Assembly (NCBI RefSeq): GCF_017377655.1 | Contig: NZ_JAFREL010000086.1 | Location: 1-57,996 of the forward strand | DNA length: 57,996 bases | Direction of reading: 5' to 3' | Source: Candidatus Enterococcus ferrettii | GTDB taxonomy: Bacteria > Bacillota > Bacilli > Lactobacillales > Enterococcaceae | Shown here: piece by piece, positions 17,315 through 40,086 of the stretch | Layout of the letters: the number at the start of each line of letters is the position of its first letter | How positions within the stretch are numbered: the stretch's first letter is position 1 | Made by a program: the position numbers and the translations under genes | Notes under the pieces: model-generated | Told to the model about the DNA's origin: nothing | The model's input: the letters and a program-made list of their open reading frames with translations, nothing else | Databases searched by the model: none

Positions 17315-17382
17315 TCACTTATCCCCTTTTCTTTATAAAAAAATTGTGGTTCAAAAACAAACTGTTGACAATATTGGAAAAA

Positions 17383-17412
17383 AGAAGCGACCCAACCGTT
17401 TGGATCGCTTCT
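17383..17412 (-). terminator. Terminator of the cold-shock gene
   Basis: Minus strand: AGAAGCGATCC, loop, GGGTCGCTTCT with one mismatch, followed by TTTTT. Confidence 0.9.
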
Positions 17413-17425
17413 GACTGGATTTAAA

Positions 17426-17626
17426 TTAGTTTTTGATGATGTTCGTTGCTTGTAAGCCGCGTTGGCCTTCTTCAACGTCGAAAGTCACTGCTTGACCTTC
17501 ATCTAAAGTTTTAAAGCCGTCTCCTTCGATAGCTGAGAAGTGTGCGAACACATCTTGTCCGTTATCTTGAGTAATAAAGCCAAATCCTTTATCTGCATTA
17601 AACCATTTCACTGTACCTGTATTCAT
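17426..17626 (-). CDS. Cold-shock protein, CspA family
   Basis: A 66-residue OB-fold protein that binds single-stranded RNA and DNA and melts mRNA structure. Both RNA-binding motifs are intact: RNP1 KGFGFI (13-18) and RNP2 VFAHF (26-30), with W8 and the aromatic patch. The start has AGGAGGATACACAC upstream, with an A-rich leader that holds a TTGCAAAAAATTAATTGTGC stretch. It is a single-gene unit with its own terminator. Confidence 0.97.
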
Positions 17627-17639
17627 GTGTGTATCCTCC

Positions 17640-18200
17640 TAGTGCTTTTTGCACAATTAATTTTTTGCAATACCTTGCTGCTAAAAAAGAAGAATGACAA
17701 CACCCATACGAATGAAATGACTCTTTGATTTAAACGACAAATCTACTACAATTAACACTATACACGCTTTAGACAGCAATGTATATCTAACTCCCCTTTT
17801 AAACCGAATAAACAGTCTAACTTACACGTTTCTTAATGTTTGATGATAAATTTTTCATTTTTAAGTAAAGTGCATTAGATTGCAAGTTATTCACGATAAA
17901 GAGTAGTTAGTGAATTTCAAATCTTGCTTTCCAATTTAATTTTAATTGGAAGTCTCCCTTTGATCAAACGCCTAATTGAGTAATTCTCCATTCCACAATA
18001 GCAGCGTTTCATATTCAACAAACTAAAGTTTTTACTACTTTCTAAGCTGATCAAAGAATAAACCTAACCTCCCTTTAGATACCTATTACCATAATCGATT
18101 TACTTAAAATTATGAAGCAACTGTAAAAAAACAATCATTTAACCAGATATCAATAACCTACTAAATTGAGATACTACCCGACAGATTTTAATTTTTCGAG
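17640..18200. other. Non-coding AT-rich stretch
   Basis: About 560 bases upstream of the cold-shock gene. The first 80 hold its leader and promoter. No gene, strong hairpin or repeat was recognised in the rest. It borders the recombinase remnant and may be part of the same decayed element. Confidence 0.45.
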
Positions 18201-35976: not shown

Positions 35977-36651
35977 TTATTCCTCAATTAGATAGCCTTT
36001 ATTTTTGACTGTTTGGATCACATCAGTTAACCCAGCTGCTGCAAGTTTTTTGCGTAGACGCGTAATATTCACCGCTAATGTATTATTATCAATAAATTCA
36101 TCATTTTGCCACAACAGCTCAATGATCTGCTCCCTAGGCACAATTTGTCCGCGATGCTGACACAATAGTTGTAAAATTCGCGATTCATTTGGAGAAACCG
36201 GAACCGTGGTTAACTCATTTTTCAATAAATTTTCAGTAGGATGAAATTGAAAACTCTGCAGCTGATAAATTGTTTCTTGATGTCCGTACTCATAGCTTCG
36301 CCTTAAGAGCGCTTGAATTTTTGCTACAAGCAAGGATAGATCAAACGGTTTCGCTATGAAATCATCAGCGCCCATTGACATTGCCATAATCTGATTCATT
36401 TTTTCCTCCGCTGAAGACAAGAAAACGATTGGAACTTCGGAAAACTTACGAATTTCCTGACACCAGTGAAAGCCGTTAAAATAGGGCAACGAAATATCCA
36501 TAACGATTAAATCCGGTTTAGCCTGCTTCACTTCCTGACTTACCTGTTGAAAATTCTCAGGAGCTTCACATTCGTAACCCCATTGCTGTAAATGATCCTG
36601 TACAACCTTCACGATCGTAGGATCATCTTCTACTAAAAATAGTTTCGTCAT
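35977..36651 (-). CDS. bceR: BceR-type OmpR-family response regulator
   Basis: A 224-residue regulator with receiver domain (1-115; D9, D10, phospho-acceptor D52, K101) and a winged-helix DNA-binding domain (about 130-224; NTLAVNITRLRKKLAA and NKGYLIEE). It would activate bceAB. It is the first gene of the operon. A TATAAT box lies about 30 bases upstream of the ATG on the minus strand. Confidence 0.93.
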   Translation of the reverse strand: MTKLFLVEDDPTIVKVVQDHLQQWGYECEAPENFQQVSQEVKQAKPDLIVMDISLPYFNGFHWCQEIRKFSEVPIVFLSSAEEKMNQIMAMSMGADDFIAKPFDLSLLVAKIQALLRRSYEYGHQETIYQLQSFQFHPTENLLKNELTTVPVSPNESRILQLLCQHRGQIVPREQIIELLWQNDEFIDNNTLAVNITRLRKKLAAAGLTDVIQTVKNKGYLIEE

Positions 36652-36830
36652 CCACTCACTCCTTATTTTTACTATTATACTAAAATAGCTGAGTAGTTAG
36701 GAGTTTTTTCGTAAAATGAAACCATTTTTCACGAATCTATTTTTTGAATAAGCAGATTTCTTGTAACTTTTTCTCTTTCGTATTATTACTGTATATAGAG
36801 GTAAGTAAATTTGGAAGGAATGATTCAATT

Positions 36831-37046
36831 ATGTCAGAACAACCAATTGGAAACATGGAAAATGCACACGATCCAAAGAAACTAGGTCTACCAAAACCCG
36901 TCATCGTTACTTTATTAGATGGTGAAGTCATTGAAGGAACTTTGATTGCTGTTCATCCTAAACGAATGGATGTTGAATTGTCCGACAAACGAGTAATCAG
37001 TGTATTCAAGCACGCAATCAAATATTTTGAACATCCTGAAGGATAA
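36831..37046 (+). CDS. Small Sm/Hfq-like protein
   Basis: A 71-residue protein. Residues 23-34 (PVIVTLLDGEVI) match the Sm1 pattern of Hfq (PVxxxLxNGxxLxG), and residues 58-63 VFKHAI match the Hfq Sm2 motif VYKHAI, with K60 and H61 equivalent to K56 and H57 of E. coli Hfq and F59 replacing Y55. The distance between the two motifs fits an Sm fold. Enterococci are usually held to lack Hfq, so this is a candidate Hfq-like RNA chaperone; similarity is by eye only. The ATG at 36831 has GGAAGGA upstream. Possible promoter: TTGTAA, 17 bases, TATTAC (36763-36792 region). It ends in a strong terminator and stands alone, divergent from bceR. Confidence 0.7.
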   Translation: MSEQPIGNMENAHDPKKLGLPKPVIVTLLDGEVIEGTLIAVHPKRMDVELSDKRVISVFKHAIKYFEHPEG

Positions 37047-37056
37047 ACAGAAGAAA

Positions 37057-37100
37057 GTACCTAAAGCTTGTCGACTTGACAGGCTTTAGGCACTTTTTTT
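37057..37100 (+). terminator. Terminator of the Hfq-like gene
   Basis: GTACCTAAAGCTTGTC pairs with GACAGGCTTTAGGCAC with one mismatch and one wobble, followed by seven T. Confidence 0.92.
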
Positions 37101-37204: not shown

Positions 37205-38122
37205 TTATCTATTCCGGCTGTCCATTTCAAAATAAGTGTGACTAATGTTTCTCTCCGTCCAAAGATTATTGTCCTTCTTAAAAACAAACTTGCCAGTTGC
37301 TGCTGTCTTCAGTTCCTTCAGTATTTGATAAGTGAACTCCGTTAAAGGAAGCTCACTAAGATCAGGCTTCGTTACCGGTTCTATAGCGACATCTTGATAT
37401 GTATTTTTATTTAGCAAAATCAGTCGCTGGTCAAAATCTATGTCTTTCCACTGCAGAGACAAAATTTTACTTAACTGGAGTCTAGTTTCCTGCATGAGGC
37501 ATAAAGCAGCCTTTAGTTGATAGCTATCGCTTTCTGGCACCCCTGTCAGCACACCCTCTTTTAAGAAATAAGTAAAAAATTCCTTTTGGTTCGGCCGAGC
37601 AATGTAAGTGTAAGGGTTATACCGCAGCAACCCTTCTCGAACTGCTTTCGCCATTCCTCTGTTTACTAACCAAGCTGCCTCATGGGCAAGCTTCTTTCCT
37701 CGATTGTCAGCAAACATATCGTCAGTCATTTCTTTGATTGTCTCATGTGTAATCATACTAATAGGCATTTCACCAAAGGCAGGAAGAATAAAGCTGGCCA
37801 AAAGCATTCTATATTTTTCAAGTGTACGTTCACTCTTCGTTTGACGTTCAGCAACTAGGAAAAGAATGAACCATTTCTCACAACTATAAACCTTCGTTAA
37901 TGGTGACGGCTGATTGGGTAAGTCTCCCACAAAGCGATGGGTTCGTTTAAAATCTTCTTCAAGCTTCAACATAGATACTAAACGATTCTCAAGCGCCTCC
38001 TCCCTTGTCTCACCATAAACAGAGCGATATTTCTTTTCGCCGTTTACGTCTTTGGCAATCGCAAAACGAGCTTCCCAACGACCATCCTTTCTTAAGTAGA
38101 TATTATCTCCTACACGTGGCAT
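37205..38122 (-). CDS. Integrase-like protein lacking most catalytic residues
   Basis: A 305-residue relative of Tn916-type integrases. The arm-binding domain (5-50; GDNIYLRKDGRWEARF) and the core-binding domain are intact, and an R214 in ETRLQLSKILSLQWKDIDF matches the first catalytic arginine. The HxxR box, second histidine and nucleophile tyrosine are all absent, because the protein ends about 55 residues early (MDSRNR). GGAGGAG precedes the ATG. It may be a decayed integrase or a DNA-binding protein kept for regulation. No TTGACGGC-like repeat was seen near it. Confidence 0.82.
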   Translation of the reverse strand: MPRVGDNIYLRKDGRWEARFAIAKDVNGEKKYRSVYGETREEALENRLVSMLKLEEDFKRTHRFVGDLPNQPSPLTKVYSCEKWFILFLVAERQTKSERTLEKYRMLLASFILPAFGEMPISMITHETIKEMTDDMFADNRGKKLAHEAAWLVNRGMAKAVREGLLRYNPYTYIARPNQKEFFTYFLKEGVLTGVPESDSYQLKAALCLMQETRLQLSKILSLQWKDIDFDQRLILLNKNTYQDVAIEPVTKPDLSELPLTEFTYQILKELKTAATGKFVFKKDNNLWTERNISHTYFEMDSRNR

Positions 38123-38490: not shown

Positions 38491-40086
38491 TTAATCTGAC
38501 AGCTTATTCCAAAAATAAGTCTGTTTATTTTTCAAATACAAACTGCTAATCACTGCTATCAGTAAGAAAACGCCCCCGTTTAACAGCCATGGATTGATTT
38601 GGAACATCACTGCCGCCACGTAAGCAGCAATAACAATACCACCCAAGATCATCACACCAAAAATCCAAAAAACTAAGGCAAAATTTCCACTGCCGCGAGT
38701 GAACAGCTCGCTGATATTGTTCCAAGTTAAATTCAACAACTGATAATCACGAATAAAGAAATGCAGCGAAATTAAAATCGTACCTAGAATGACCCCTGCC
38801 ATCATGGATAACAATAGTAAAAACGGCAAACGAAAAACCAGTCCTGCCAATAATCCAACTACTCCTGTGATGATGATTTGTACTGTGCAGGCAAACCAAA
38901 ATTTAATTCGCATATAGCTTTTAAATGATAACGGCAATGAACGGATAAACAAGAAGTTTTCCCGATCTAAAGAAATAATCGAACTAACAAAGGAGGTCTG
39001 GTTGATTGTCATGCCTGCTACAAAAATTCCGACTACAAAAAATACACCAAAAAATTGTAAGGACAGACCTTTAAAAGAAAAATCGCCAGTCGTCATAAAC
39101 GTGATAAAAAACACGATGGGCATGATTAACGAAGATGAAAGCATCTGCATCACTAAGTTTGGGTTTTTGATCAGCTGGATGTTGTAGCCTCGCATCAATT
39201 GAACTAGATTCTGATTCTCTTTACGTTTCCGTTTTTTATTTCTACCCTCTTGTGGGGTATCATTAACCGATTGATACAATTTTGGTACAATAGATTTTCT
39301 TAAAATGAAGAAAATGATCACTAAACAAACAACGAGACCCATCACACTTAACAAACCTGCAGCCGAAAATGGTGCAGTGACCGCATAAAAAAATGGCATA
39401 AAAGGTGTTAGGGCTGTTTTATCAACAAATTCGCCACTGTAGCTCGTGTTGGTCTGAGAAAAATTAATTAGTAGAATCCCACCAATGGATACGACCATTG
39501 ACAGCACCAGCATTCCAGTGGTAAAGGTCTTTTTGTGACGTGCGAACAGTTTCGTTTGAGTCAAGCCGAAAATAAACAAGCTACATAAGCCAAACAACAA
39601 TAAGACAAACGCCACAAACAATAGCAAGCTGGAAAGAATTGCCACTAGAATCATCTGTCCACTGCGCCAAGCAGCTAGAAAGAACACTACCGCTAAAGGA
39701 AGCAAGAAAGGTACGATGGTTAAACCCACCACTAAAAATTTCGATAAGAAAACCTCTCCCTGTCGAAAAGGCATCGAGAGATAATTTTCTAAATCACGAC
39801 TCTCAAAAAAAACATTGAAAATTGCTGACATTGCTTGAGAAAAACCAATCAAACCAAATAGTGCCATGTAATAAGTGAAATAACCTGGAAACTTAGAAAA
39901 ATCAATCATGAACATAATGCCTACGTAAACAACGAGAAAAATGATTCCTGAAAAAATATAAGAACTTAAGACTCCGCGAATCAGTTTTTTCCCAGTCTTC
40001 CCTTTTTTACGTGATTGATTGGTTGCTGAAGGATTCACATATAAGATATTCGTTCGCATCAACGCTTTTAATTGCTGAAGCTTCAT
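38491..40086 (-). CDS. ABC transporter permease (large ABC-2 type)
   Basis: A 531-residue membrane protein with 12 or more helices, of the large unusual ABC-2 permease class found with NatA-like ATPases. It overlaps the ATPase gene by four bases. An N-terminal basic stretch (KKGKTGKKLIRG) precedes the first helix. Substrate unknown. Confidence 0.83.
   Translation of the reverse strand: MKLQQLKALMRTNILYVNPSATNQSRKKGKTGKKLIRGVLSSYIFSGIIFLVVYVGIMFMIDFSKFPGYFTYYMALFGLIGFSQAMSAIFNVFFESRDLENYLSMPFRQGEVFLSKFLVVGLTIVPFLLPLAVVFFLAAWRSGQMILVAILSSLLLFVAFVLLLFGLCSLFIFGLTQTKLFARHKKTFTTGMLVLSMVVSIGGILLINFSQTNTSYSGEFVDKTALTPFMPFFYAVTAPFSAAGLLSVMGLVVCLVIIFFILRKSIVPKLYQSVNDTPQEGRNKKRKRKENQNLVQLMRGYNIQLIKNPNLVMQMLSSSLIMPIVFFITFMTTGDFSFKGLSLQFFGVFFVVGIFVAGMTINQTSFVSSIISLDRENFLFIRSLPLSFKSYMRIKFWFACTVQIIITGVVGLLAGLVFRLPFLLLLSMMAGVILGTILISLHFFIRDYQLLNLTWNNISELFTRGSGNFALVFWIFGVMILGGIVIAAYVAAVMFQINPWLLNGGVFLLIAVISSLYLKNKQTYFWNKLSD

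Follow-up and report, generated by a model that had tools for sequence, protein, structure and literature searches.

A conserved small gene in a chromosomal islet

The window, a stretch of 57,996 nucleotides from Candidatus Enterococcus ferrettii, includes a gene for a 71-amino-acid protein (P0001) located in an islet between a response regulator gene and a membrane permease-like gene. The features of this region are listed in Table 1. Translation of the reading frame gave 71 residues and a stop codon, with PVIVTLLDGEV at residues 23–33, VFKHAI at residues 58–63, and the pair K60 and H61, as a first-pass annotation of the same DNA had described.

Table 1. Features at and around the gene for P0001 (positions in the window)
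Feature	Position	Strand	Evidence or remarks
Response regulator gene, conserved left neighbor, separate from the Hfq-like gene	35977..36651	-	PF00072, PF00486; same neighbor in E. pallens and 669A
Upstream block CTTTCGTATTAT..TATATAGAGGTAA, candidate promoter region	about 36775..36804	+	Common to window, E. pallens and 669A (alignment)
Candidate ribosome-binding site GGAAGGA	36813..36819	+	11 nt 5′ of the ATG; read from the sequence
CDS, diverged Hfq/Sm protein, 71 aa (P0001)	36831..37046	+	Homologues, selection, relation to Hfq
Terminator-like stem-loop, 14 pairs, and T run	37060..37097 (stem 37060–37090)	+	3′ of the 71-aa gene
Incomplete tyrosine-recombinase-like gene in the islet	37205..38122	-	PF00589, profile positions 18–97 of 172 only
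Membrane permease-like gene, conserved right border of the islet	38491..40086	-	Conserved position; no Pfam match

Homologues of the gene were found in E. pallens (L001) and Enterococcus sp. 669A (L002). Over the 71 codons on which all dN/dS comparisons of this gene are based, the E. pallens copy differs by 26 bases, 21 of them at third codon positions, with two amino acid changes (dN 0.012, dS 0.87); the 669A copy differs by 39 bases, 28 at third positions, with nine amino acid changes (dN 0.072, dS 1.23), and the dS of the pallens–669A pair was saturated and gave no value. The adjoining response regulator gene had a dN of 0.044 and a dS of 2.26. The codon-position pattern and the dN/dS values ruled out a chance reading frame, and these results indicated that this is a real gene under strong purifying selection. 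Translation probably starts with the ATG at 36831, since the stop-to-stop frame of the 669A homologue opens two residues before the equivalent ATG. The consensus scan listed no plus-strand promoter in the candidate promoter region, and one terminator-like stem was found against 0.3 expected in shuffled sequences. The genome has no second copy of the gene, the next match having an E-value of 0.33. A phage gene was also considered and rejected, as P0001 had no match in 50,697 phage records.

The position of the gene is syntenic in three species: in E. pallens and 669A, as in the window, it is flanked by this response regulator gene on one side and this membrane permease gene on the other. The distance between these two genes is 1839 bp in the window, 1959 bp in E. 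pallens, 4192 bp in 669A and 103 bp in a relative, G002, the only informative empty site among the eight loci whose surroundings were read (the response regulator is present in 13 genomes of the genus). The missing gene in G002 may instead reflect a loss there. The recombinase-like gene is present in the E. pallens islet and absent from that of 669A, which has other genes in its place, including an IS-type transposase-like open reading frame. It codes for 305 aa, and the E. pallens copy has equal length and 75% identity (dN 0.156, dS 2.08); it is apparently a conserved, incomplete integrase. No rep, mob, antitoxin RNA or Fst-like peptide was found in the islet of the window, and the Rfam search near the 71-aa gene gave one sub-threshold match (E = 0.62). 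An RNA or toxin partner inside the islet was rejected because no Rfam match at gathering score and no Fst-like peptide were found there. The one Rfam match at gathering score in the whole window was a cspA thermoregulator at 17381–17746 on the minus strand (78.4 bits, against a threshold of 78).

The gene was found in 3 of 20 genomes of the genus and is chromosomal in the E. pallens group; the named carriers of the window-type gene are E. pallens, Enterococcus sp. 669A and AZ109. Searches with P0001 matched 5 of 147 relatives. In the taxonomic family, 6 of 105 genomes had a match to the family profile, and in the order a profile of five sequences (A1) had matches in 8 of 395 genomes, three of which were weak (E from 1.5e-4 to 9.2e-4). 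The nearest environmental relative, P0010, did not turn up in the samples of the order, class, family and phylum, and no confirmed relative was found in the viral contigs searched with P0010 and a larger profile, A3. The first-pass annotation had assigned the DNA to a Lactobacillales-type genome, which is correct, the genus being that of E. pallens. The Pfam Hfq model PF17209 matched 7 of the 147 relatives, all belonging to one genus of another family, which by its sequence we take to be Listeria. This distribution agrees with the view, also put forward in that annotation, that enterococci lack Hfq; the available text of two papers states this for E. faecalis and E. faecium and describes enterococci as having many small RNAs and as lacking Hfq, ProQ and CsrA (PMC10117718, PMC7724050). 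None of the open-licence papers among the matches listed dealt with an enterococcal relative of Hfq.

Relation of P0001 to Hfq

As a single sequence, P0001 stayed below every curated cut-off, including those of PF17209 and TIGR02383; it weakly matched LSM (E = 0.071), Hfq_1 (E = 0.092) and SM-ATX, and had no NCBIfam match. Its best match among solved structures was the archaeal Hfq-like protein MJ1435 (E = 0.0031). Profile A1 matched MJ1435 at 1.5e-8 and Staphylococcus aureus Hfq at 0.0088, and a profile of 27 sequences (A2) matched MJ1435 at 9.5e-11, S. aureus Hfq at 2.4e-6 and Bacillus subtilis Hfq at 1.5e-4. Some rows of A2 and of the 31-row A3 pass PF17209 by themselves, which in part predetermines what these two profiles match; A1 is the cleaner test of homology. 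A3 matched 64 of 398 Bacilli genomes, and 22 of the 30 loci in the list of matches are canonical Hfq genes with the motif (F/Y)KHAIS(T/A). It also matched proteins other than Hfq, among them spore-type proteins and repeat proteins that contain an Sm-like stretch, and therefore column shuffles and RimP were added as controls. In hhalign, five window-group sequences aligned to 27 canonical Hfqs of Bacilli with 92% and a score of 36.7, while the best of 60 column shuffles reached 1.2% and 14.0, and RimP 1.3% and 14.7. Relatives of P0001 also weakly match RimP C-terminal models; nonetheless, a RimP-like barrel (RimP C-terminal domain, PF17384) was rejected, since its hhalign result was at the level of the shuffles. 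The relative P0012 scored 36.8 bits with the Pfam Hfq model, above the cut-off of 27, and 31.7 with TIGR02383, under the cut-off of 61.7. As far as sequence comparison goes, the homology of P0001 to Hfq is sound, and it stands without the status of Hfq by any curated cut-off.

The canonical set consisted of the 27 of 31 loci that passed a motif filter. Among the four dropped, L060 and L061 code for long MVSPYE-repeat proteins whose N-terminal stretch was matched by the family profile, and L047 and L048 code for 96-aa proteins that end in LIPKHSIAY and are Hfq-like too, in a form that departs from the canonical motif.

We take H57 to be the E. coli Hfq number of the site matching H61, and the E. 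coli numbers of all positions besides Q8, Y25, I30, K31 and K56 (F42, N28 and S60, for instance) are likewise our assumption. The number of K56 is that of E. coli Hfq in the available text of PMC5348863. In the profile–profile alignment K60 and H61 fell on the K and H of the (Y/F)KHAI motif of Hfq, as the first-pass annotation had claimed in equating them with K56 and H57. The Sm2 motif is present as VFKHAI, and the rows of the tree alignment keep K56 in 37 of 37 and H57 in 35 of 37 cases. Other positions depart from canonical Hfq. The uracil-stacking aromatic at position 42 is K in all four window-group rows and aromatic in the 33 others; shifting the position by one residue gives R or P, likewise non-aromatic. 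At the distal-pocket positions Y25/I30 the window group has T27/E32 (4/4) and the canonical rows have F or Y at both (12/12). By eye, the Q8-D9 motif of the N-terminal helix is missing from the window group in the tree alignment, and QD is present in the canonical rows. Position 28 is D in 25 of 25 non-canonical rows and N in 12 of 12 canonical ones, and position 60 is K in 24 of 25 non-canonical rows (R in the other) and S in the canonical rows. The calculated pI of P0001 is 6.0, and those of seven compared plasmid and environmental rows lie between 8.0 and 10.0.

The tree was built from 67 columns and 37 rows (22 proteins, three locus translations and 12 of the 27 canonical Hfqs), leaving out near-copies, P0009, P0029, P0032, P0033, L020 and L026. 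One branch (100/100) separated the 12 canonical rows from all others, and another (100/98) set off the four rows of the window group; the program warned of joined long branches. P0001 grouped with plasmid-borne relatives, outside canonical Hfq. Judged by its sequence, it is a diverged Hfq/Sm protein outside the canonical branch. The first-pass annotation had left the choice between a diverged and an independently kept chaperone; the relation to Hfq stands on the profiles and hhalign, and independent keeping is unlikely because P0001 groups with plasmid-borne relatives and the islet is missing from one close relative.

Plasmid-borne relatives

With the relative P0005 as the tblastn query, 153 of 72,556 plasmid records gave a match; 129 of them are from Enterococcus and 17 from Macrococcus/Macrococcoides, and 143 of the 153 are predicted to be mobilizable. 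P0001 itself gave 19 matches to plasmid records, all weak (E of 0.01 or above). Gene context was examined in 18 plasmid stretches. In E. faecalis pL11 the first base of the Hfq-like gene is the final base of rep, and mobV comes next; in E. faecium Aus0004_p3 the Hfq-like gene and the end of rep overlap; and beside some plasmid copies there is a MobQ gene. On the genome contig L080 it lies 3′ of a primase-domain replication gene. Some of the enterococcal plasmids with an Hfq-like gene are small (L083, L118 and L028, from E. faecium and E. faecalis, 3.2–4.4 kb); the gene touches or overlaps rep in L028 and L083. In all seven Macrococcus loci examined (L030, L087, L088 and L114–L117, out of 17 listed), an annotated Fst type I toxin gene faces the Hfq-like gene, convergent and 117–122 bp downstream; because the seven backbones look related, this pairing may represent one event. 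In E. faecalis pJXZ076-25K a holin-like toxin, RatA and an rli28-type RNA are found beside the Hfq-like gene. The remaining 10 of the 18 stretches had no annotated type I toxin (L119 bears no annotation), and Rfam found no antitoxin RNA at gathering score in the Macrococcus loci. Where the plasmid members examined have an annotation, it is that of a hypothetical protein, and the others have none. The name Hfq is given to P0010, P0013 and P0019 by JGI, and a relative from E. faecium bears the name LSM domain-containing protein. A Mammaliicoccus sciuri plasmid (L032, 5758–6228) codes for a 156-aa protein with an N-terminal extension and an Hfq-like C-terminal part.

Interpretation and comparison with known systems

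The reading that we favor, at somewhat better than even chances, is that P0001 is a ring-forming RNA binder of a diverged Hfq branch that derived from plasmids and was taken over by the chromosome. The gene would encode an Sm-fold protein of a branch marked by LDG(K/E) and FKHA(I/V)KY. It would most likely have originated in the plasmid-borne part of this branch and reached the chromosomal islet before the species of the E. pallens group separated, and it would now be a gene standing alone there under purifying selection. An origin of the chromosomal gene in a plasmid lineage is likely. P0001 probably assembles into a ring of the Hfq type, in which K60 and H61 would bind RNA on the pore side, and it probably tunes RNA pairing or stability. 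The plasmid relatives would probably serve antisense-controlled functions of the plasmids themselves, and the chromosomal copy would have been taken over for host RNAs. A bolder version, possible and offered tentatively, is that a distinct FKHA(I/V)KY branch, found largely on Gram-positive plasmids, brings Hfq-type RNA control to hosts lacking Hfq. Its members would be the plasmids' own RNA chaperones, serving type I antitoxins and the antisense control of replication, and the E. pallens group would have domesticated one of them as a chromosomal riboregulator with a rebuilt RNA site, in which PKR replaces the uracil-stacking aromatic.

The proximity of the plasmid copies to rep, a primase-type replication gene, MobQ or type I toxin genes, the seven Fst pairings in Macrococcus, and RatA with the holin-like toxin on one E. 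faecalis plasmid could also point to an accessory factor with a narrow duty, serving one antisense RNA, one replication or mobilization transcript, or DNA, of which the chromosomal copy would be a domesticated one-target leftover. We consider this somewhat unlikely: the window islet has none of these partners, the related Macrococcus backbones may count as one event, and many type I antitoxins act without the need for Hfq according to the available text of a review (PMC8167048). It is improbable that P0001 is a fully functional Hfq which, like the protein of E. coli or Listeria, serves the E. pallens group as global matchmaker of small RNAs and mRNAs. The homology, the retention of K56/H57, the conservation in at least three species and the failure of PF17209 to find another Hfq in the genus agree with such a role; however, the distal-pocket aromatic and F42 are lost, the rim and Q8 motifs were not seen, P0001 lies outside the canonical branch, and the gene is missing from 17 of 20 genomes of the genus. 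A different small SH3-like beta barrel, resembling Hfq by chance or deep ancestry only, would explain the weak LSM and SM-ATX matches, the RimP matches of the relatives and the spore-type proteins found with A3. It is very improbable, since RimP scored at shuffle level, far from the canonical Hfqs, and MJ1435 and bacterial Hfqs top both profile searches.

The lack of Hfq in enterococci would then hold for the canonical gene only, given that one group has a chromosomal Hfq relative, and the relatives on E. faecium and E. faecalis plasmids limit it in the same manner. The question of who handles enterococcal small RNAs can now be approached through this single 71-aa protein and its relatives on plasmids.

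Canonical Hfq of Bacilli and Listeria-like genomes (PF17209) shares with P0001 the Sm core, K56/H57 and the GG spacing, but it has N28, FKHAIST, F42, the Q8-D9 motif and the distal aromatic, all of which P0001 lacks. A plasmid-borne Hfq of a Gram-positive bacterium is Hfq3 of Bacillus anthracis on pXO1, which has a short tail and, in the table of PMC5348863 and so compared here by description, keeps the proximal Q, ED and K and the distal F and V; in the portion of that paper available, its host also has chromosomal Hfqs. Another plasmid-borne Hfq is mentioned for pQBR0137 in the available text of PMC9928087. The closest solved protein, MJ1435 (PDB 2qtx, 4x9c, 4x9d), has GEV...VFKHAI.Y and 71 aa in common with P0001; it is archaeal, has Y at the site of K44 of P0001, and no gene-context link connects the two. 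Hfq-like proteins are encoded directly downstream of replication helicase genes on Thermococcus and Methanocaldococcus plasmids, and they were aligned to 2QTX and 1KQ1 by the authors, as given in the accessible part of PMC3543421. Most of these archaeal plasmid proteins are, in the same text, fused to a zinc finger, whereas P0001 is a lone domain encoded on the chromosome.
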